A stretch of DNA of 64,000 bases from Clavulina sp. PMI_390 (lineage: Eukaryota; Basidiomycota; Agaricomycetes; Cantharellales; Hydnaceae): contig WIDE01000020.1 of NCBI GenBank assembly GCA_015039315.1, positions 196,168 through 260,167 of the forward strand, in the 5' to 3' direction. Below, piece by piece: positions 11,621 to 49,252 of the stretch (positions are counted from its first letter, which is position 1; each line of letters begins with the position of its first letter). The position numbers and the translations under genes were made by a program. The notes under the pieces were generated by a model that saw only the letters and a list, made by a program, of their open reading frames with translations, was not told the DNA's origin and made no database searches.

Positions 11621-14600
11621 ATGAGTTTCACGTACAGCCGTTTGCTTCAGATCCGTTCACTCAAAGACCAACCTCGCTTGGAAGGAGACATTTGGTTTGC
11701 TATCTCCAAGCGCTGGTGGGATCGATGGGAAAGTGCCTGTATTGGAAGAGCTTCAAAAACCCCCTCCACTGGACCCTTGGGCCCAGTCGACAACTCTGAC
11801 ATTTCAGAGGAAGATCCTCAGCCTGGAGTCAAGTATGCTCTCTTGGATATGCCTCCTATGATGGAGGATGAACACATCGAGATGGTACCTCAGGAGGCTC
11901 ATGAGCTTTTGGAGGAGTGGTACGTCCCTCTCGAACCTCGCCTAAAGCGCGAGCAAGTACTTCGCCTGACCCCTTTCCTCGCTTGGCCATAGGTACGGCC
12001 CGACAAAATACCCCTTCCAATATGAAGTCACCCCTGTGGCCCCAGACGACTGGAAAACTCACATTGAACTGTATCCTCGTCGCATTCGTGTTTTTCCCAT
12101 CTCGTCCTCGGGCAAGCCTATACCACCGGTCTATCTGCTTGCTTCACGCAACTCGCCTATCTCAGTGATCATCGACGCGATGAATTCGGCCGCTGTACTA
12201 GAGGATGGCATGGAGCTTGTACGAGTGGATATCAACCGAGCTGACTTGCCCTGGGGCGAAGTTCACCCACTTTCTGCATCTGAATTTATCAATCTGAACA
12301 GCGAGAAAGTCACGCTGCTAAGTCTGAAAGAAGGGGATGCTGCCTATTCATACATCGATGAGATTACCCCTGCTTTGAAGGAGTCATTTGTAGCCGTGGC
12401 ATCTGCCACCGTAAAAGCTGCGCAGGCATCGTATGAACCGCCGCAGCGTCAGCTCATTCCTGTTGGAGCTAAAGGACTTTGGAATCTGTGGGTAGTTGTT
12501 CGCTTGCTTCTCCCTATGATGTCTTATTCAATGAATGCTCATTCGTGGTAGTGGTGAGACCTGCTACATGAACTCTGCCCTACAGTGCATCGGCCACGTT
12601 CCGATATTGACGAACTATCTCCTCAGTAAAGTAATATCTCTGCTGGTCGTTCTACTTCTATTGACATGACTGTAACAGGCGGCCAACATATCAACGAGCT
12701 CAATCTAACAAATCCCCTTGGTACCGGCGGCGTCGTTGCCAAAGCCTATGCTGAGCACCTGAAGGGGTTCTTTGCCTCAAGCCCTACGATTGCACACGCC
12801 GCTCGAGACTTCAAGCATGCTGTTTCTAGTCACGCCTCACAATTTGCCACATACGCCCAGCAGGACTCACATGAGCTGCTTGCATGTCTACTCGATAACC
12901 TCCATGAGGATCTTAATCGAGTGCGAGAGAAGCTCTATATACCAAACCCGGAGTGGACTGGAGGCAGCGAGGGAGGTAATCCACAGAAAGTGCTAGAACT
13001 TGGGGAGGCGTTTTGGAAGGCGTACAAGAAAAGGAATGACAGCGTTGTGGTCGACTTGTTTCAGGGGCAATACAAAAGTTCTATCATCTGCCCGTCGTGC
13101 AACCATGTAAGTTATCGGGTGAGATATAGTATCTTCTTCCTCGCACTGATTCCTTTGGGTTGTGCGTACAGGCCTCCATCACATTTGATCCATTTATGTA
13201 TCTCTCGGTTCCGATTCCCGTGCACCGAGTGTGGGCCCACCAGATTCACATAGTTTCCTGGAAGTCATCTAAACTCTCGTTGGTATGAATAGTTATACAA
13301 GGGACTAGTGGGTATTCATTCTAACTAGTTGTGAACTTGACAGGTAGAGGTGCAGCTTTCGTATGACTCATCTATTGGCAGCCTCAAGAAGTTGGTTGCT
13401 GAACACTTCAGCCTAGATCACTCTCAGGTAAACGTGCAACGGCCAATATCACGCACTGCCGTCAATGACTGGCCAAACTGACACTACGTTGATCTGCTTA
13501 GCTTTTTGCAGCCGAGGTGCTTGATGGACGGTGGTACAAGGTCTTCTCGGATGACGACTTCCTGGCAGAAATCAAGTCTGATGACAAGATTTTCATCTAC
13601 GAGATTCTCGTGCCTCCCTCCTCTGTTGTCGTCCCTGTGTATCATACTTTATCCTCCTCGGACGACTCGACCTCGCCAGTCCCTGTCGGTTTCCCCACCT
13701 TTGTGGCAGTTTCAACAGGGTCCGACGTCAGGAAATCGGCGGTCGTTGACGAGGTTTTCACATCTGCTCAGCAGCAGTCCCTGTCTCAAAGTCTACCAGT
13801 GCTGAAGGACATCTCGCTCTCTCGCGGTGGGAGTAATGAAGGCGTCTCCTTCACATCGCCTACTCCTATCTCAGTGGTCTTTGGGGCGAGTGAACCCGTC
13901 CCTTGGGAGGACCGCGCAGAAAACACTGGTGCCAACGGCGAAGGCGCCGCCGTTCAGATGCTAGATGTACTCATTGCATCATGGGCTGTGCCCTCTGGAA
14001 CCATTGCTTCCTCTGAGGCGGCTGAAACCATATTCTGGGACAACTTCACGCAGCACCCCAACCCACTTTCTTCCTTAACTTCTGAGTTCACGAAGGATAC
14101 CACTATTAGTCTGGAGTCTTGTCTCGCCGCGCTCACTGCGCCCGAAACACTTACGTCCTCCTGGTACTGTTCGTCTTGCAAAACTCACCACGAGCCCCCA
14201 ACCTCTCCCTCCTCTGGTGAAGCAAACCATAAAGCCACAGGGGTGCAGCGCCATTTCTCGCTCTGGCGCGCTCCCGCAGAAGTACTCATCGTCCATTTGA
14301 AGCGATTCAGCAGCTATGGTACAGCACACGAGAAGCTGACAGACTTTGTGGACTTTCCCGTGCGCGGGCTGGATCTGGGGGAGTGGGTGGGGAAGGACAA
14401 GTTGGAGGCCACGCTGAGTCCTCAGAGTGCTGAGAGCAGACGTGGGCTAGTATATGACCTTGCAGCGGTCTCGGAACACGAAGGCACTGTGTTGGGTAGC
14501 GGGCACTATCGTGCATATGCGTATAATGAGTCCGATGACCAATGGTATCATTATGCGGACGCGAGAGTAAAGAAGGCGCGGGCTGAAGATGCGGTAGTAA

Positions 14601-14716
14601 GTTTTTTTTACTGGGATTGGATGGTGTTCATGTCGCTGAATTGATTTCCCCGAACCATTCTTGCGCGACAGAACCAGCATGCTTATATGCTTTTCTATGT
14701 CCGCCGCAAAGAATAA
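11621..14716 (+). CDS. Ubiquitin carboxyl-terminal hydrolase with DUSP domain (Ubp12/USP15 type)
   Basis: Cysteine protease that removes ubiquitin from proteins. The N-terminal DUSP domain reads LLQIRSLKDQPRLEGDIW and on to LLEEWYGP. A ubiquitin-like segment with RRIRVFPISSSGKPI follows. The catalytic domain opens with a Cys box restored by splicing, LWNLGETCYMNSALQCI, then a Gln box YAQQDSHELLACLLD. Zinc-type pairs CPSC (near 13089) and CSSC (near 14168) flank a long acidic/Ser-rich insert. The His box is VLGSGHYRAYAYN, and the C-terminus YMLFYVRRKE comes from a short last exon after an intron at about 14596-14670. The last box reads WYHYADARV: the position usually holding Asn or Asp after the aromatic residue is Ala, though the next Asp remains. 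The ATG at 11621 starts just before the DUSP domain; an extra upstream exon is possible. Confidence 0.9.
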
Positions 14717-36637: not shown

Positions 36638-36958
36638 GGCGTGGGTGGAGAGTTGTTTGGCCAAATTCTCACGGGGGCAAATCCCGAGCAAACGTTGTTT
36701 TCTGTGATCAATGAACACAAGGAATTAGCGAAAATTTTGAGAGGGCACAGTGGCATAGATTGAAAGACGGGGTAATTTTACATCGGAATTCGGACATGAG
36801 ACTCAGAACGCTATCGTATGGATCATTGAGGTCGTGTGAAGAGAAAAGAATGAAACGCGAATAGAGGCAGGCAGTCGATACTCATGACTTCAGAAGAGAA
36901 CGGAAAGAAAGAAGAGGGAAGAGGGAAGAATCCAAGCAGATAACATAGCGGCTATCCC

Positions 36959-37212
36959 TCAAACCTGTTCGGTGTGTGTCGGCGTGTTCTTCTCAACATC
37001 TGACCCCTCCGTCGCCGAAGCATCTGGCACCGACTTCTCGCCAGTGTAGGTACGGTGCATATCCTGAATCTCGTTGGCGTTTTGCATGCCAATGTTCTTG
37101 TCGAGCATGAGAGCCCGGTAGCTCTTGCTCTTCCATGGGACGGTGTTCTGATAGAGCAAGTCGATCTGCTCAAGGGAGAGGCCCTTCGCTTCCGGGAACA
37201 ACAAATGTAAAC
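36959..37212 (-). pseudogene. Truncated copy of the hexose-transporter 3' exon
   Basis: This 250-bp piece repeats the last exon of the transporter at 46677-49252, in the same orientation and at roughly 90 percent identity by eye. It covers GLSLEQIDLLYQNTVPWKSK through to the same last residues THTEQV and the stop. Upstream of it none of the other transporter exons is present. The membrane-helix end just before PEAKG is two bases shorter than in the intact gene, so the frame is broken there. It has no promoter or start of its own and is taken as a relic. With the intact exon it forms a direct repeat around the 38-46 kb gene. Confidence 0.85.
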
Positions 37213-38034: not shown

Positions 38035-41000
38035 ATGACCAAAAAGACGAACGCGAAGCAGAATTCGACATTCAAGAAGGGCTTGGGATCAAATGCCAAT
38101 GGTAAGCGTTCCTGATTCCCCCACGGTCTATAGAGATCTGATGCGGCTGGCCTCATGGCGCTGTCCATCCCTCCTGCGTGCCCCGACTAGCCCCCATCGA
38201 GATCGACGACGATAGCGACGGAGCGACGCCTGTTCGCCGTGCCCCGCTGCGTGTCATCGATCTCGATCCTAGCAGTGAGGACGAGGCCGTCGCCCCCCAA
38301 GCGCCAGTTCACCAGCCTCCTGCGAACGTAAGTTTGGGTCCTACCGCTTCGTCATACATCTATGCAGCATTATGGCTAAATGACGAACTCCTATAGGCCT
38401 CCAATGCGAAGCGCTCTCGTTCTGACACGCTTTGTGAGTCCAACGACGACCGACCCAACTCTAGATACTAACTCGATCGTCGTTTAGCCGATGACCTGCC
38501 GGAAAAGGCAAGCAAACTTCCGCGACTGACTACCCCTCTAGAAGATAGTAAGTCGCTCCTTCATGCTTTTCAATCATCCGAACTCATTCGTGCTCCCCTC
38601 TAGCGCGTCCTCTCGATGTTCGATCGCCCAGTCGATGCACGACGGACGCAAGCCGCTCAAGTTCCCGCCCCAATTCGCCTACGCCCCCGCCCGACCCTCG
38701 CTTCCCTCAAAGTTCTGCTAGCCGAGGGCTGAGAGCTTGTAAGTGTTACTATTCTCGATGCTCGATTGCGCTGTGTCGAACTGGGTTAACTGGTGAACGG
38801 CTTTCCCTCACTCCCCACTTTAGATGGCAAGAAGGGCCACAGCACCGCTGCTCGCGACGTAGGAGGAGTAGGGCCTCTCTCGACTTTTCCTCCTCTGCGC
38901 CACGGCACCCCCATCACTGGCGAGAATAGGGTAGATGAGGTGAGCATTCACTCTTTATCATCAGAGAATGTGCTGCTGAAACGAGTGCTACATAGAACCG
39001 TCGTTCTTCCAGCCCCGACAACCCCGCATCCCATTCCCCGCGTACGTCCTTTCCCACCTTCTCAAAGTATCGTGCTAACCATGCGGCCTCGAACACATAG
39101 TGGCTTCGAAACGTGCACCGGCTAGAGGCACCGATACCAGCTGGCCGAACGCGCACTGGACAAAGAGCCGCCTCGGAGGAAAACCTGCCATCAAGACCGG
39201 TTTGGATACATCGCCCCCAAAGCTCACTACACCCCTCTCGCCCCTCAAGCCTGCCGACGCTCGTCGACACACCCCCGCCCGCCGCAACAACCCTCCCATC
39301 GTTCGCGCGCGCGATGGAAAGTCTTCGTCTGGCCACCCCGTCGCTGGGAAGACCCCGCAGCATAAAGGTAAGAGGTTTCGGATGATGGAGAACCTCTTGA
39401 GTGCATGAATCTCATGAGCTCCTTGCAGGTACCTTACCAACGACACCCCAAGGCCCTCGTCATCGAGGCACTCAATATGGAGGCGGATACATTCGCGGGG
39501 ATAAGGAAAATGACCCCGTATGTGTCCACTTCTCTAAACTTGCCTAGGTTAGAACCAAGGGATTGTTGACGTTGAACCTCGCTATAGTCACTTTTGCAGA
39601 ATAAGAATTTCAAACGGCCACGATCGGCCACCCCTAGTAAGTAGGTTCCCTAATTTTAAACAACAGTCTTCTTGACGATATCTCGATCTCTCTGTAGCGA
39701 CTGTTCAAGCGCATTCCGTGAAACGGAGCCGAGTGGATAACCTCCGCACGCCTACGCAAAAGTCTAACATTCTCGGTAAGCTATAGATACTTCTGTTGGA
39801 AGCCTGAAAACTCGTTGGATGACGATGCTTACCACTTTCCTACCCTACTCCTCTCAGGCGCAGCAAGGCCCTCCCCGTCGACGGGACCAAAAAACGCTAT
39901 CATCTCTCCCAACCACTTTGGGCCTCTGTCCGACGACGAAGATGACGACGAAGAACCCCCTCCTCCAGAGCCTGACTGGAAACAGGCCTCAAAACCTCCC
40001 GCTAAGAAGCTCAAAAAGCATCCGAGAAGAATCATTTCATCGTCGTCACCCCCTCCCAGCTCGCCTCCCAAACCATCGAAACCCTCGAAGCCCTCGAAGC
40101 CCCCCAAACCTTCCAAATCCTCCGACGCGTCGAAGCCCCCCGACTATCAAGCGTCTCGCCCCCTCCAGTCGCACACCGCGCAGTCCTCCATCGCGCCCCC
40201 AGAGGGATCTCGGTCGCAAAGCCCTCCTCCTACGGCGGGGGCAAGCGATCAATTGACCCCCAATCATGCGACTCGTCATCGCAATGCCCAACGGGCCAGG
40301 CGCGCTCGAACGCCTCTCAGCGCCTCCAAGATTCGTGAAGCCGTGGAGAAGGGTACACTCTCCGGCGAGGAGCTGGAAAAGGCGAAAGAACGGGCGGAGC
40401 GAGCCAAGGCTCAGCGCAAAAGACGTCGACGTCGGGCGAGTCGGGATAACGATGAGTGGACGACGAGCTCGGCTTCCGCTTCAGCTTCATCGTCGCCCGA
40501 ACGCCAATCTACGCGTGACGGGGCCAAGACGGCGACAAATGGTAATGGCAAATCCCTGCCTCGCATCCCTCCTCCGCCTCGTAGATTACCTGCACTTCAG
40601 CCAGTGCCCCGTCCTTCAAAGCCAGGACCGTTGCCTCAATCGCCTTCTAGTGATGATGATGATGATGACGATTCCCATCGTCGTCCCTCTCCACCTCCTG
40701 GCCCTCCATCTCCAGCTGGAGGTCCGTCGGCGGATCCTTATAAGTGCTGTCCTTCCCCAGACGAGCTCAGGCGCGTCGTCACCAAGGGAATCCAGAATTT
40801 GGGGAGCACCTGTTATGCGGGATCGAGCCTGCAAGTTCTCCGTACGGCCTGGGGCGAGCTTAGTCGGTATCACGACTGCACAAAGTTTGAAGAGGACTCG
40901 GACCATAAACCTATTCGTGTTGGCTGCGCCCTCAACAGAGTATTCCGTGCAATGACGGATCTCAATCAGTCTGGCCCCGTAGATCCTTCTCCCCTCGTGC

Positions 41001-44000
41001 AGGAGATGCGTCGTCTTCCCGATAAAGATCAGTGGGACTGGAATCAACAACACGACATCCGTGAATTTGTCCACTTCCTCCTGTCGGCGATAGCTCCCCA
41101 GCTCACGAGGCCCGACGCTCCTGTAGTTCTTTCGTCCGCGCCTTGCACAGATTGTGTCCGAGAGCTAAACATTCCCCGGCCTCTATGCGAGCGGTTCATG
41201 CCAACCATCCAGGGTGCGCCATCTTCTGGCTCTATCCAACAACTCGTCGACGATTGGCAAAGGGAGGGCTCGTGGGAGACGACCCCTGCCGTCACTTCGG
41301 ACGCGACCTGCTCCCATGGCCAGCCGAACCTCAACTTTGGCACTTTGAACAATGTCCCGCTTGGGGTCTCTCGGTTTGGGCAATTCTTGCCCATTGCGAT
41401 TAGCAGGAATCTCGGAAATGTGCGCGATTATGGCCAAGTCATTCTCAACCCTACAATTCGCCTCCAAGTGCCCGAGAGGGGCGAGCAGGTAAACCTCAAG
41501 TTCGTTATCAGAATTCGGGTCTCCACTGATTACGGAATATTAGGTATGGGCCCTCCGAGCGGTTAGCGTCAGCCACGCAAACCCCTTCGACCTAACTAGC
41601 ACTCTAGCTGGTCACTGGACGAGTGCAGTGAAGTATCAGAATGGATGGTATCATTACGACGATCGGAGTCGGGAAATGATACCTAACCTAAACGACGCGA
41701 CTGTGTTGCTCCACTCCGTGGTCTCCCAGAATGTCGGCCTGGTGCTATACGAGCTGGTGAACACTCCCAATTGCGCCCTTCACTCCGCAACTTCCTCTCA
41801 TCACGCTCATATTCCCGCTCCCTCATCACTACCCACTCCAGCCGTCTCCTCGTCCTCCTCTCGTCCATATCGTCCTTCTGCTCAAACTCTTCCATCGAGC
41901 ACAGTAGTGCAACCTGTCAGCCAATCACCCCATAACGAGCATGCACATGACGATGATACCGTATCATTTGAAGACAGCGAAAGGTATCTCTCGGACGCTA
42001 TCAAGTCGCAGGGTGGGGGTGATGACGATAGCCAGCTCCAGGATAGTCTCCGGGATGAAGACGACATATTCGGTGATGGGAAGGAAAATAGACTTGCTGC
42101 GGCCTTGAAGACGTGGAAAATCCGATGCTCGACGGAAATCGAATTTGCTCGGATGCGCGATCAGCTCCTCAACGAGGCAAAGACCGCTTCTGAGAGGCTC
42201 GCAGTCCTGAACCGTATCAGAACTAGTGGAATGCGCGACAAGATCGACCCCGCCATCCCAGTCCTCATAGATCAGCTCCCCGGTGGTCCAGAGCTTCTGG
42301 CGGACCTCGAAACCGACCCATTCGGCCTCAAGCCCGAGCGTCATAGCAGGATATTGGAACCTGTCAATGAGACCACCGCATCCCCACTTGCTCAGGACTT
42401 TTATCTTCGAGGCGCGGAGATGACGAGGGCCCAGTTCGAGAAGATTCTTGACGACCATGTCAAGCAACATCCCGTCAACGCGGACCTGGTCTCTGGGACT
42501 CGTGAACTCCTCACGGATAAAGAAATGGGCGACAAAATTATCATCCTCTACGTTGGCATGTCACGGCGAGGGACTTATCAACGTCACAAGGAGGATCGCG
42601 ACCAGGCTGGGCGCCCCACTGGAAGGAGGTATTTTACCTATCTCCTCCCCGACATCGAGGCCATTGCCCATTTTCGCTTATACCGCATCCGAGGCCTGGA
42701 TCGCAACTTTCCCCAAGGCCCCACCTTTACGGGAAACATCGAGGAGTACCTTATTGATGCTGTGGGTCCCGCATCGCTCAACGTCGCCCATGGAGGGCGC
42801 TCTTCTGGAAAGTTTTCTCCCGACCATATGCCGCCCAAGGTGAAGGAGGTGACCGACCAGGTAAGTCCGCTCTTATCGAGGAACGTCCTTTTTTTCTCTT
42901 CTCATGGTAGTCGCAGGTGCAGACCACATACAGGGTGTCGACCCCGAAGCGCAATAGTGACGATGTCCAGCCTCGGGTTCAAAAGTTTAACACGCTTGTT
43001 GACACTCTCGCCGAGCACTACAAAAATCAGCCAGGTTCAAAACCCATTAAGGAGGAGACCTTGGAGAAGATCAAGTCGCTCGGCTCACTCATTGGGACTT
43101 TTTCTGACGAGTGGGGTAGTGGGGTCTGTCTAGGTAAAGATCTCACCGAAGCGGAACTCGATAATAAAAGCCATATCTTTGACGAGAACGCAGGAGACGG
43201 CCCTCAGTACGTGACTTGTCCTCGTCTCCTACCTCCCGTATATTGAGTCAGATGTTCGTTTTTTTTTGGCTCATACAGCATGTTCTTCTCCCTCCTACTC
43301 AAATCCAAGGGTAACGATCGCAAGAATCTCAGTCGAAAAGAAATTGGCGATATAATTGGGGCATTCCTCGACTTTATGGTATTCGGGAGTCACTTCAAGG
43401 ACATGAGCTCCCTGCTCTTATGGTTGGCAGCGGCCTTGACAATCTTTGGCCCAAAATTTATCTACACCTGGGGAAATCTGGTATGCTCGAATAAAGCTGG
43501 CATCAACTTTGTGCTAAATTACATCCTCTAGGTTACTGCCATCCTTCGTCAAGGCCTTGTTAATCTCCCCGATAAGCCCGTGATCAGAAACTTCCTCAAC
43601 AACCCCACATATCCAAATTTCAAACATGCCGATAACTGGTTCAAGGCCTCGCAGTGGTTCCGCTGCTTTGTAGCTTCCAAATCGCTCGAAGAACTCAAGG
43701 CAGAACCGCTCGTACCAGGAGAGATGTTTGTAGCGCGCTTGCCACTGGGGCGAGTCGTCATCGTTTTTGCTTTCCCCCACAACGGGTGCTGGAAGTATAT
43801 TGGACGACTTGTGGTGATGGGCGAATACCTGACGTTCCTGTGCCTGCTCAAGCTACTCATCCTTGAGCATGCATGCACCGACGAGACGCTTGAGAAACGT
43901 CCGGATCCGGATATGTCGGATTACGACTACCTTGGATGGATCGCCGGCACAGTCGAACAGAGGTCTATCGAGAGTGATCTACAGCCTATGATCGATTCGG

Positions 44001-46420
44001 TTGCTTGGGAAGTGAGTTGTTAGAAACCTGGCTCTCGAGTTCAAGACTAATTGCTTGTCCCAAGGTCCGTAAACTACGTCGGGCCATCCAGATTCTCTCT
44101 CGCAATGTCACTCCTCGAGATTCTGAGGTCCCGAAGATTGAGGAGCACTTCTACCCTCGGTCTCTGAGAGGCAATGGGGGTGTTATGGATGACAAGGAGT
44201 TCGAGGAGATTGATGAGTCCATGATCGCAGATGCGCCATTCTACCGGCTCCCACCACTCATCGTTGCCGTGCTGAGAGACGCTCCGGGTGGAAAGGCGAT
44301 GACGCGAGGGGAGATTTTGGAGACGATAAGTCGCTTTTGCCCCCATTATCGCATGGGACCCTGGTCGGGGTGGATGGTGAGTCCTCCAAATACATCGCTC
44401 CTGGGTCATCGTGATCTGACGTTCACACCTTGTAAACCCTTTATCGACAAACTCGACATTTTCACTATCCACTGATCTATTTTGTGTTTAATTCGCTCAG
44501 CTGGGTGTCGATTGTCACCTTCGACTCAACTCGTGCTTCAAATTTCGCCTTCGGCACCTCGATGGCGACCAATCTGACATCTTCTGGACCTACAAACACA
44601 ACCCAAACGGTGATCGTGTCACTAGGCCGCCAAAAGATCTGAAAACGCTTAGGGACCTTCGGAAGGATGCTCGTCCACACAAGTGTCCTCACGAAGGGTG
44701 CCAGAGCGTCTTTCATCAGAAACTTGTCCGCGACAGGCACTACAAACGGGTGCATCTCGGCGTTCAGGGTAAGACTGCTACTCCTCATATGCCGCTAGAA
44801 TGGTGCTAATCACCCGCCAAATCTCAGAATTTCCATGTGATAAATGTGACCAGTCCTTCAAGTCGGCCCAGGCACGCGACCATCACGAGGAAAGGGTCCA
44901 CCTTGGTTTGAGGCGTGAGTCTATACCGCATACATGCTATCTGTTAAGCTGTACTCATGGTTGAACTTTGATTAGCACACAAATGTCTAGAGTGTGGTCA
45001 GGTCGTGGCCACGAGGCAATACCTAAAGAGGCATGTGGATGCAGAGCATCGAGGATTACGACGCAAGTTCTTTCTAGCCCGGTTTCTCACTCCCTTGCTG
45101 ATAATGATCCTTGGTGGAGCAGCCTTCAAATGTCTCGTTGACGGATGTGATACCGCATTTCCTCGATCGTACGAGCTCAAAGCCCACGTTAAGAGGGTGC
45201 ATGATCGCTGGCGACGTGAGTTCCTGTCGTGCATTTGACTATCTTGGAAACTGAACAATTCACTGTTGGTGAGACAGCTCATCAGTGCTTGTGGCCCGGC
45301 TGCCCGTGGTGGTTTGCTGCACCATATAATCTTAAACAGCACGTCGACGAGGTGCATCATGGCAAGAGGCGTAAGTTATCCTATGCATATTCCCTTCGAT
45401 TACAAAAAGCTGACCGTGTACAACGGTGACACAGCGTACCTCTGTCATCATCTCGGCTGCGGAAAGCGATTTGCGCGAAAGCATCACCTCAAAACTCATC
45501 GTCTGACGCATGACCTGCAAAGAGAGGGTGAGCCATTAGGATTACTCGTATTTTTCTGGTCCAAGAGCTCATATTGTTATGGAATAGTGTATATGTGCAC
45601 GGTGGAGGGGTGCGATCGCCAATTTGTGACGAAAGACGGGCTGAAAGCGCACATAGAGAGCCACAATCGAGAAAAGCGTAAGTCTTCATGTCTCTTTATC
45701 CGCTAAAATCGAGGGAGTCAACAATTCTATTGTCGCCCAACAGCGCATGTGTGCACTCAATCTGGATGCGACGAGAGGTTTGCCACGGAGAAGCAATTGA
45801 TCGCACACATGAAGCGGGACCACCACATTGATAAACGTAAGTCTCGGATATCCCTTGTCTCCCGGCCCCCTGAATGTTCTAACGTGCACTATGCGGGAAA
45901 TAGCCTTTACTTGTTCACACCCGGACTGCCCAAAGAGCTTTACACGGAAGGATCACCTAGAGAGGCACAAAAGAGAACACGACGAATCGAAATGTGAGCT
46001 TCTTGAAGGCGCTCGGTGTATCCACAGAGCTAACTATCCAGTGCTCTTTAGGGTTCAAGTGTGAGAAATGCGAGTTTGTGACTCCGCATCCACATTCGAT
46101 CAAGACTCACCTCAAAGACCATGACCGTAAAACCCGTAGGTCCTTCTCCATCTGTATCCCTATCACTAGGGCTCACATTACTTATTGCTGCCTTACCAGC
46201 GTTCGTGTGCAGTTGGTCAGGATGCACAGAAAGCTTTGCCAACAACAAATCGTTGGCCACTCACATGAAAACGCACTCCGACCATCGTGAGTTCTTCTTG
46301 GATATCTTATACTGATTCGCTTCTCACGATTTGGGGAAAACAGCTTACATTTGTCCCCACTGTGACAAGGCGTGGGCAACAATTACCGAGCTCAAGAGAC
46401 ACATCAAGATTCATGAATAG
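38035..46420 (+). CDS. Multidomain protein: USP-type protease + GIY-YIG-like nuclease + forkhead-like domain + 12 C2H2 zinc fingers
   Basis: Hand splicing gives 29 exons whose lengths keep one open frame to the stop at 46418-46420: 2,177 residues. Residues 1 to about 640 are disordered (Ser, Pro, Arg, Lys, acidic runs). A USP (C19) domain has Cys675 in GIQNLGSTCYAGSSLQVL, a Gln-box-like QQHDIREFVHFLL, His921 in AGHWTSAV and Asp936 in WYHYDD. A GIY-YIG-like domain has ILYVGMSRRG (Tyr1233), Arg1244-His1245, Glu1297/1298 in NIEEYLIDAVGPASLN. About 380 residues without known family follow. A forkhead-like winged helix spans about 1717-1805, and twelve C2H2 fingers fill 1826-2176. A nuclear, DNA-binding protein with linked protease and nuclease activities is inferred. 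One gene is favoured because every junction from the first to the last finger stays in frame; two adjacent genes cannot be excluded without cDNA. Confidence 0.8.
42520..42800 (+). other. GIY-YIG-like nuclease domain (within the 38035-46420 gene)
   Basis: The order of residues fits the GIY-YIG fold: a strand ending ILYVG, a basic segment with Arg and His (TYQRHKED), a helix, and later a Glu in NIEEYLIDA closely followed by GPASLN and a Gly-rich end (VAHGGRS). In the family the Arg and Glu are catalytic and the Asn packs the core. The first GIY strand is poorly preserved, so the call is by pattern and moderate. Confidence 0.55.
44233..44620 (+). other. Forkhead-like winged-helix domain (within the 38035-46420 gene)
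   Basis: The order matches forkhead domains: PFYRLPPLIVAVL (helix 1), AMTRGEILETISRFCPHYR (helix 2 and the FPYYR-like turn), W-x2-WM then LGVDCHLRLNSCF (recognition helix), and a wing ending FWTYKHNPNG. The usual Asn-x-x-Arg-His of the recognition helix is replaced (LGVDC), so ordinary forkhead site recognition is unlikely. An intron at 44377-44500 cuts the domain inside that helix. Confidence 0.6.
44678..46417 (+). repeat. Array of twelve C2H2 zinc fingers, one per exon
   Basis: Finger 1 ends the exon 44501-44768. Fingers 2-12 each occupy one exon: 44828-44914, 44976-45062, 45123-45215, 45278-45370, 45435-45527, 45588-45677, 45744-45836, 45904-45993, 46052-46135, 46200-46286 and 46344-46420. 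Every border between them is phase 1 and introns are about 55-70 bases. Most fingers are C-x4-C-x12-H-x3/4-H. Fingers 2, 3, 10 and 12 have C-x2-C. The intron after finger 3 uses a GC donor. Confidence 0.88.
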
Positions 46421-46676
46421 TCGGTAGGAAGGAGGCGAATTATATATTACGTCCTCGGCTGGGGTGACAGCGAATGTCGATATATTTTCGAGTACATGGT
46501 AGCTAGCGTGAATGACATCGCAATGCATAAATGTGAGCATATGAATCATGAAGAACAGACAGAGGAAGATGAGAGACAAACGGAAGCAGAGGTCAGTCAG
46601 AACGCAGGCAGTCAGAAAGAATAGATCGGTAAAGAGGACATAGTAGCGAAAGATGGAATAGAGGAGTGGACGACGC

Positions 46677-49252
46677 TCAGACCTGCTCGGTATGAGTTGG
46701 CGTGTTCTTCTCAACATCTGACCCCTCCGTCGCCGAAGCAGCTGGCACGGATTTCTCGCCGGTATAAGTACGATGCATGTCCTGGATTTCCTCGGCGTTT
46801 TGCATACCGAGATTCTTGTCGAGCATGAGAGCCCGATAGCTCTTGCTCTTCCATGGGACGGTGTTTTGATAGAGCAAGTCGATCTGCTCGAGCGACAGGC
46901 CCTTCGTCTCCGGGATGCAAAAAAATGTAAAAATGCAGCAACAGGCACACGTGCTGCCCCAAATAAAGAAGACCTTGGGGCCAAGGTTTGCTGCTTTCAT
47001 GCCGGTCGGACCTGTTTTCGAAGAGTCAGCAGCTGATACCGCGCTAACACGTGCCTGATATGCTCACCAGTCGTACTAGGGTTCACCAAATAAGGGGTGG
47101 CGTACTAACGTCCCCCATGGAAATATAGAGAGCAGCAAGAAGACAAGAACAGGCCCCGAAAACGGGCGATGACACGCGGGAGGGTTGGAGGCACGATTGG
47201 TCACGGTCACGGTCACGGTTTCCGTGATGGATAGGAATTGAAGAACGGGTGGTAGCGAATATGTGAGTAAGCGGAGCACAATGAATAACATAAGGTATGG
47301 AGCACTCACGCCAATAGCAAAGTTCCAGAGCCAGTTGGAGGCCGTAGACATTGACATGGCCTTGGCACGAATCTCAAGAGGGTAAATTTCTCCCGTTACC
47401 ACCCATGCGATGGGTCCCCAGGTAGAGGCGAAGAAGAAAATGTCTAGAAAGGATAGGGAATGTCAGAGAAATCGGTTACAGGGCTCACTAAGGCGAGGCA
47501 AGGAGCGGACGGACAGATGCAGACGAATGCAATCAAGACCTTCTGTCCCGACTTATTATCCACTGAGATTGTGACGCCAATAATCGCAACAAGGAACTCG
47601 CAGAAGCACATGCCAGCTGCACCCCAGAGAAGCTAGGAGCGGGGAGAGGGGCAGTTAGAACATATTGAACGGACTCATATCAAGAAAGGTACTCACCAGA
47701 TTACGACGTCCAACACGATCGACGGCCAAGATACCAGGGATCGTGGATCCCACGTTCACCACATTCGTGGCAACAGATATAAGGAAGGGGTCGGAGATGC
47801 CAGAGTTCTTGAAGAATGTTGTGCCATAGTAGAAGATGAAGCTGTTGGACGCACAAATCCCCGAGAGAGGGGGCCATTCAGCACACAAGCGAACCAGCAC
47901 AGCCCGAGGCTCAGTTATCACGAAAAAACGCACTTGATTCCCGTAAGCTGCTGCCATGCCTGAAGGAAGATCCCCGTCATAGTCCGGAAGAAGATGTGGT
48001 TCTCCTGTTTAAAGCACGCAGCGTAACCTGCGAAGAAGCTCTTCTTCCCGCCAGTCAGTCTGAGCTCCATCTCGCGCTCCTGTTCCAGATTGATGCGAAT
48101 CTCCTGGAGTTCAGCCTCTACACGCGGGTCCGTGATGTCACAGGTGAGCAGGCGAGCAAGGGATCGCGCAGCACGGTCATCATGGCCCTTTCGAATGAGG
48201 TACCGAGGAGATTCCGGGAGACCGGACATTCCACCGGCAAGAATGAACGCCCAGATGAACTGCAGAGCGATGGTGAGTCGATATGATTTGTGCGAGGCGA
48301 CGTTCTTCATGCTATTGGCAACGATGGAGGCGAGCAACAGGCCAATTGCTAAGAGGACGAAAGCAAAAGGCGTGAGGATATGGTGCAAAAAAAAAAAAAA
48401 AGATTCACTCACTGATCGCCCATTGGTAGCACGACACAACAGCACCGCGGATCCACTTGGGAGCGCTAGTTGATGTTCAAGTTAAAGAGTAAATCCACCA
48501 CTACATAGGAATACCACACCTACCACTCCGATTGATACATAGGTACCATGCATGATACGAGTCCAACACCAAGACCACTGCGGAAGGGTAAGCCATTTGA
48601 GAACAGACACCAAAAGAGACCGACCGAAACTCACGCAATTACACGGCCCACAATAAAGAGCGGCATTGCGGTGGCAGCAGTCTGGAGAGCCACACCAACA
48701 CAGAACACGGCGCAGGAGAAAATAATGCCTAGCTTACGGCCGACACCGTCCGCCATAGGTGCTGCTAAGAGGGCACCAACGAACGTCCCAGCGGAGAGAA
48801 TAGATCTGCAAAGTGCCGATCGAAGATAAAGGGAAACCCGGTTGAATATAGAATTCTCATTGAGTTTTCTCAAAAACTCACACGACCAAGGACTCCTGGT
48901 TAGTGGTGATGTAACAATTGGGACTGTTCGGCTGGTTATCTGGATTGTAACCAAAGGTGCAGAGCCAATCCGGCATGACCTTAACACCCGAGATGGTGCC
49001 AGTATCATATCCGAACAAGATACCACCAAAAGCAGCGAAGGCTGGATATGACGAGTGGGCAAATCAGTCACCTGGAGCGTGGGCTCGTGGAGTGCAAGAT
49101 ACTCACCAGTCATCAAGATACCCGGCCATGGGTTCGCAGGGCGCTCTGGGAGTAATAAACACGTCAACGTCATAGTTGGGATGCGCGATGAAGAAGTAAC
49201 ACTTACCAGAACCACCTAGACCTCCACCAGTGGCTATTGCACCTCCAGGCAT
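46677..49252 (-). CDS. MFS hexose transporter (HXT type), copy 1
   Basis: Twelve-helix sugar/H+ symporter of the plasma membrane. Landmarks after splicing: MPGGAIATGGGLGG, FGGILFGYDTGTISG, SILSAGTFVGALLAAPMADG, VGRKLGIIFSCAVF, the PESPRYL signature, QAWQQLTGI, FFKNSGISDPF, DRVGRR, WVVTGEIYPLEIRAKAM, ASNWLWNFAIG and PETKGLSLEQIDLLY near the C-terminus. About ten introns, one of about 180 bases (47100-47285) holding a GGTCAC triple repeat and another with a 15-base A run near 48387. A short exon encoding VNPSTT precedes the last exon, as in copy 2. The ATG at 49252 is the first in frame. Its last exon is the source of, or sister to, the relic at 36959-37212. The intact motifs indicate a working transporter. 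Confidence 0.9.

Follow-up and report, generated by a model that had tools for sequence, protein, structure and literature searches.

Judged by its sequence, the fusion gene described here belongs to a modular gene family, a result that goes beyond the single-gene view of the initial annotation. It was found in a window of 64,000 nucleotides (contig C113:196168-260167) of the assembly of Clavulina sp. PMI_390, a mushroom-forming agaricomycete of the Cantharellales; this assembly (39.4 Mb, 301 contigs) was also the sequence searched for relatives. The encoded protein carries, in this order, a low-complexity N-terminus, a USP domain, a GIY-YIG-like domain, a forkhead-like winged helix and twelve C2H2 zinc fingers. 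On balance, we favor a predicted molecular mode in which the protein would be a nuclear deubiquitinase that is tethered to DNA and also carries a nuclease-like domain, in a module-swapping, fast-diverging family. The features of the locus, in window positions, are as follows.

36958..37197, minus strand: sugar-transporter relic (its C-terminal exon, identified by eye) on the left side of the fusion gene, with 88% identity to 46676-46915
38035..46420, plus strand: fusion gene, complete coding region in 29 exons (2,180 aa), free of internal stops
38035..40786, plus strand: N-terminal part, rich in Ser/Pro and with basic stretches resembling an NLS (by eye), exons 1-11 and the first part of exon 12
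40787..41762, plus strand: USP deubiquitinase domain, aa 667-973 (Pfam UCH), containing the intron 41489-41543
40811-40813, plus strand: USP catalytic Cys, C675, with N670 as the oxyanion Asn
40952..43246 (about), plus strand: 727-aa public model DL93DRAFT_717974, with no other public model found at the locus
41613-41615, plus strand: USP catalytic His, H924, in the His box
41658-41663, plus strand: USP D939/D940, the [DN]D box
42081..42398, plus strand: conserved region of unassigned fold, aa 1080-1185, preceding the nuclease-like domain (paralogue alignment)
42420..42830, plus strand: GIY-YIG-like domain, aa 1193-1329, with Y1236, G1238, R1247, D1251, E1300/E1301, N1313 and G1317
42917..44011, plus strand: conserved linker module, aa 1340-1663, exons 14-16
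44233..44599, plus strand: forkhead-like winged helix, aa 1720-1800 (Pfam/PDB), with the intron 44377-44500
44678..46417, plus strand: aa 1827-2180, an array of twelve C2H2 zinc fingers in which numbers 2-12 lie one per exon with phase-1 introns
45063..45122, plus strand: GC-AG intron (GCAAGT...CAG)
46676..46915, minus strand: transporter C-terminal exon, right of the gene, the intact partner in the direct repeat

The exons were taken from an ab initio model and then corrected by hand; the automatic models, which spliced intron 12 and exon 15 wrongly along with several of the finger exons, were replaced. The predicted closure in one frame held, and the length given initially, 2,177 residues, was revised to 2,180. 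Among the 28 introns, 27 were GT-AG and one was GC-AG; at the place of the latter, the C202 paralogue has a GT-AG intron of the same phase. Retention of an intron would bring in an in-frame stop in 19 of the 28 cases and would leave the frame open in the other 9. The least certain part of the gene is its start codon and first ~600 residues, a Ser/Pro-rich and poorly conserved stretch; paralogue matches to the N-terminus were weak and low-complexity, and no Pfam match was obtained within aa 1-666.

A six-frame comparison against the own genome revealed a family of at least 11 loci including the fusion gene (C202, C280, C204, three on C275, C35, C15, C90 and C247), with weaker matches also on C27 and C235. 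Domain order was collinear within subfamily A, which comprises the window gene, C202, C280 and C204, the last three being 42%, 36% and 34% identical to the window protein, respectively, over 1,401-1,505 aligned residues of a spliced alignment. No stops or frameshifts were observed in the aligned parts of these paralogues (query aa 641 on). All four genes share introns at residues 900/901, 1340, 1436, 1504, 1664 and 1768 (phases 0, 0, 2, 0, 0 and 0), as well as introns of phase 1 that separate the first fingers, at 1857, 1886, 1915, 1946 and 1977, with only partial agreement among the later finger introns. Codon positions 1 and 2 differed less than position 3 in all 15 region-by-paralogue comparisons. 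A nine-sequence core tree, which left out C275a and C90 and in which the C202 row included wrongly spliced pieces of its second USP, separated subfamily A (four sequences) from subfamily B (five) at 100/100 and placed C247 on a long branch. Several family copies, on C204, C15, C90 and C275, were observed within ~25 kb of a contig end, places that could be repeat-rich or subtelomeric.

Because the three subfamily A paralogues keep both domain order and introns, the fusion locus is almost certainly a real, single gene; the initial claim of one 29-exon gene was thus borne out by one-frame closure together with collinear paralogues sharing introns. The alternative, a gene-model artefact merging two or three neighbors (USP/GIY-YIG and winged helix/zinc fingers), could appeal to the end of the public model within intron 14. 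Exon 13, however, contains the end of the USP together with the GIY-YIG-like domain, and exon 18 contains the winged-helix end along with finger 1, so that the two halves of the gene are connected through exons 14-17. With order and introns across this join kept in three paralogues, such a merger is extremely improbable, and a two-gene artefact was rejected on the paralogue evidence.

In public protein databases, exon 13 gave, along its full length, a 100% match to DL93DRAFT_717974, a Clavulina sp. PMI_390 hypothetical protein, and this model of the own locus was the only match at E <= 10 among the matches listed, with 7999 candidates scored. The model starts at Met722, downstream of the catalytic Cys675, agrees with the hand-corrected gene in introns 12 and 13, and has its 3' end inside intron 14. 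An intron at the site of this end was present in all eight paralogues that reach it (C202, C280, C204, C15, C35, C275b, C275c and C247), and we therefore read the public model as truncated; it could instead reflect a short transcript. None of 4578 candidates matched residues 660-1850 at E <= 0.001, while the matches listed for aa 1436-2180 comprised 14 of 8000 scored, all with C2H2 finger domains. These searches relied on exact words of five residues and on length limits; they missed the family paralogues as well and are therefore no proof of absence from other fungi. In the literature, the domain combination was undescribed among the matches listed (the best 15 of 1,033 for one query), a search that covered few subscription papers.

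The USP Cys, His and Asp boxes noted initially were intact, and the window domain gave a Pfam UCH match of 53.1 bits (E 4.5e-14), above the cut-off of 23.9. A CxxC is located at aa 786-789. Pfam UCH matches were also obtained on the paralogues C15 and C275c, to which a six-frame scan added C35, C90 and C202. The oxyanion Asn, the Cys, the His and the [DN]D, the motif residues to which the catalytic roles of USPs are assigned, were kept in all 11 USP domain copies, window copy included, and the USP of the fusion protein is predicted with good confidence to be enzymatically active. A second USP gene region above the Pfam cut-off was observed in the same window at 12550-14698, ~23 kb away from the fusion gene.

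Between the USP and the nuclease-like domain, 23 of the 106 residues of aa 1080-1185 were invariant across four paralogues, and no Pfam match was obtained on aa 974-1185. The eight aligned GIY-YIG-like domains had invariant columns Y44, G46, R55, D59, E108, N121, G125, G126 and K131, and all eight contained the Tyr/Gly of the YIG half-motif, the Arg, the Glu and the C-terminal Asn. A ninth copy, C275b, has YIGE, an Arg 12 residues later and E...N...GG; the motif pattern scan overlooked the first motif in this copy and in C15, where it is readable in the alignments. On shuffling of the invariant columns, the ordered Y.G-R-E-N pattern, which was chosen post hoc, arose in 1 of 200,000 trials. The hallmarks of GIY-YIG domains are GIY, YIG, Arg and Glu, with Asn common and not universal (PMC1564403), and the YIG Tyr is replaceable within the superfamily (PMC2630997).

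No invariant Tyr corresponding to the first Tyr of the GIY half-motif was present in the eight aligned paralogue domains. Pfam GIY-YIG gave no match on the window domain, on five of eight paralogue domains (the scan left out C202, C280 and C275b) or on two consensus sequences. An hhalign comparison with ten GIY-YIG proteins returned a probability of 0.6%, a level hardly exceeded by true GIY-YIG sets, which scored ~1% against each other with equally small alignments, so that the comparison does not discriminate. A PDB hmmsearch with the eight-sequence profile yielded six weak, unrelated matches and no nuclease, a PDB sequence search with the region alone yielded no match, and three pieces compared with PHROGs gave one chance match. 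The 197 viral and 92 prokaryotic pattern matches contained no confirmed relative. Of the GIY-YIG pattern proposed initially, then, the five invariant catalytic-type residues (Tyr, Gly, Arg, Glu and Asn) stood and the GIY half-motif and Pfam match did not, and we accordingly label the domain GIY-YIG-like and not a member. That the domain is dead or of an unrelated fold, leaving simply a DNA-targeted deubiquitinase, would agree with the missing half-motif, the empty Pfam result and the six PDB matches without a nuclease, and yet Y, R, E and N stay invariant although identity to the window domain is as low as 17-26% in subfamily B; we regard this reading as somewhat unlikely. The window domain probably has a GIY-YIG fold, and it is a putative nuclease whose chance of being catalytically active falls slightly short of even.

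The linker module gave no PDB match, and Pfam returned weak chance matches in single members only. The forkhead-like assignment fared reasonably well: the window domain scored 26.0 bits (E 1e-5) against a Pfam Forkhead cut-off of 27, that is, 1 bit below, and matched PDB forkheads from E 2.6e-5. The paralogues scored 17.5 bits (C202) and 14.6 bits (C280), and C204 gave no match. The count of twelve zinc fingers was confirmed by the pattern C-x2-5-C-x12-H-x2-6-[HC], which found 12 units in the fusion protein, and zf-C2H2 matched in 10 stretches with 125.6 bits (E 2.5e-37), above the cut-off. The Pfam check proposed for the whole translation therefore succeeded for UCH and zf-C2H2, with Forkhead below the cut-off and GIY-YIG without a match. 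By the same pattern, C202 has 12 fingers and C280 and C204 have nine each, with uncertain ends. Helix contact residues were identical at 15/120 positions compared with 36/180 at other positions (fingers 1-5, six pairs; Fisher P 0.12, pairs non-independent), a lean only toward contact residues that may diverge somewhat more than others between paralogues.

Subfamily B consists of seven loci, four with a USP and a GIY-YIG-like domain and five with a different C-terminal module. C15, C35, C275b and C275c carry the USP, the GIY-YIG-like domain and the linker and keep all four core introns. The C247 alignment begins at the GIY-YIG-like part, has three of the four core introns and contains one stop, within its poorly matched front part; C275a and C90 align across the USP alone, C90 with one in-frame stop. 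Downstream in C15, C275c, C35 and C247, open frames of 440-500 aa were found with shared motifs, including a Cys/His-rich one (by eye), and the C-terminal module of C275b is that of C275c. This module is neither winged helix nor fingers, and no Pfam match was obtained in the copies scanned, four out of five.

C202 carries two USP domains, the second intact-looking (C202:651613-652552), and the introns proposed in this insert are alignment artefacts because the insert is the second USP. The first is closest to the window USP (41.6% identity) and the second to the C280 USP (40.9%), with 20.9% between the two, so that either an ancestor with a pair of USPs or their joining at a later time is likely. 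Identity between C275b and C275c was 93% in the USP and 88% in the C-terminal module (457 residues), and only 23% in the helical part, 37% in the GIY-YIG-like domain and 30% in the linker. These neighboring copies, at ~144.7-159.8 kb of C275, show a cassette-swap pattern. For the USP of subfamily B pairs, not of the window gene, dN was 0.031 and dS 0.175 (C275c with C275b), and dN was 0.126 and dS 0.323 (C275c with C275a).

These data bear on whether the gene encodes an ordinary Cantharellales chromatin or DNA-repair factor, with the GIY-YIG-like domain acting as in Slx1 or ANKLE1 (the human ANKRD41 of COG3680), and with ubiquitinated histones or clamp proteins as the USP substrates. The intact catalytic-type residues of both domains, the conserved intron-rich gene structure and dN below dS in the two subfamily B USP pairs are all consistent with such a factor. 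Eleven loci that swap modules, and a middle only 23-37% identical between two neighboring copies, are nevertheless unlike a housekeeping repair gene, and the genome already holds an Slx1-like gene (named by eye), its one Pfam GIY-YIG match; we consider an ordinary repair factor unlikely.

The flanks of the gene were also compared. The two 240-bp copies of the transporter repeat differ at 28 positions, 24 of them third codon positions, suggesting that coding constraint still acted on the left copy as it diverged, before its remaining part was lost. Because the relic and the intact transporter flank the fusion gene, a gene block of ~9.5 kb was probably inserted or rearranged into a transporter pair. 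A domesticated or selfish mobile element, in which the USP would shield element proteins, the GIY-YIG-like domain would cut the target and the fingers would choose the site, could account for such an arrival or rearrangement and for the multi-copy family, and transposon deubiquitinases (VTD and OTU in Helitrons) are known (PMC9741609). Between 30 and 54 kb, however, the only inverted repeat of at least 25 nt was one 73% pair, with one arm within the gene and the other past the transporter, not at the block ends, and the left flank matched only itself and the neighboring transporter in the genome. The nearest full-length copies are intron-rich and their proteins just 34-42% identical, and no transposase, RT or helicase family was found in the scanned pieces (the window protein almost in full and the paralogues in part). 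A mobile element is therefore quite unlikely, and the selfish nuclease gene suggested initially gained no positive mark, neither terminal-looking inverted repeats of at least 25 nt nor a repeated left flank. A recent transposon was rejected, as genome searches with the protein and the left flank gave no near-identical copies.

Under the favored mode of a DNA-tethered deubiquitinase, the winged helix and the C2H2 array would set the protein on DNA, the intact USP would remove ubiquitin from proteins at the bound position, and the divergent GIY-YIG-like domain would nick DNA or bind a DNA structure. The paralogues have the core in common, but it too is exchanged or diverges fast, like the number of USP copies and the C-terminal module, a pattern to be expected if diversifying pressure of a conflict type acts on the family, with invading or selfish DNA as one possible opponent. 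We infer one transcript, nuclear location, DNA binding and deubiquitinase activity from these features and, more weakly, nuclease activity and a conflict role; such a role of the family is a tentative possibility. A further step, to an undescribed eukaryotic conflict system combining exchangeable DNA targeting, local deubiquitination, cutting by a new GIY-YIG branch and cassette exchange of an allorecognition- or immune-like kind, is improbable. The protein may act, as proposed initially, as a sequence-targeted chromatin or repair factor. If the favored mode is true, the protein would be a natural enzyme that, at a single chosen site, edits both DNA and the ubiquitin state of proteins. The paralogues, which differ in having one or the other of two C-terminal modules and in a swapped middle, form a comparative set for the role of each part. 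The locus also suggests that an intron-rich gene of such a kind can stay hidden behind broken annotation.

Among known systems, the Helitron VTD and OTU deubiquitinases share with the fusion gene the idea of a deubiquitinase tied to DNA mobility or conflict, and VTDs are reported in Agaricomycetes too (PMC9741609); the fusion gene differs in deubiquitinase class, and neither a helicase family nor ends (repeats of at least 25 nt) were found. The domain partners described for GIY-YIG nucleases, COG3680 and Penelope among them, in the available text of PMC1564403 differ from those of the fusion protein. In comparison with GIY-YIG proteins (T4 I-TevI, Seg proteins, UvrC, YhbQ and Slx1), the window domain has in common with these nucleases Y.G, an Arg 11-12 residues past the YIG Tyr, the Glu and an Asn 12-13 residues after the Glu pair, with N...GG as in Seg proteins, whereas it lacks the GIY half-motif and a Pfam GIY-YIG match. 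The winged-helix pattern of the PDB forkheads 1kq8 and 7cby matches the window domain over ~80 residues, in contrast to its position just under the Pfam cut-off and the lower scores of the paralogues. Finally, the USP part matched USP46, USP12 and USP15 (peptidase C19) in the PDB sequence search, with a best E of 0.0011, and shares with them the Cys box with the oxyanion Asn, the His box, the Asp/Asn and one finger-subdomain CxxC; unlike these enzymes, the window USP is very divergent and is joined to DNA-targeting and nuclease-like modules.
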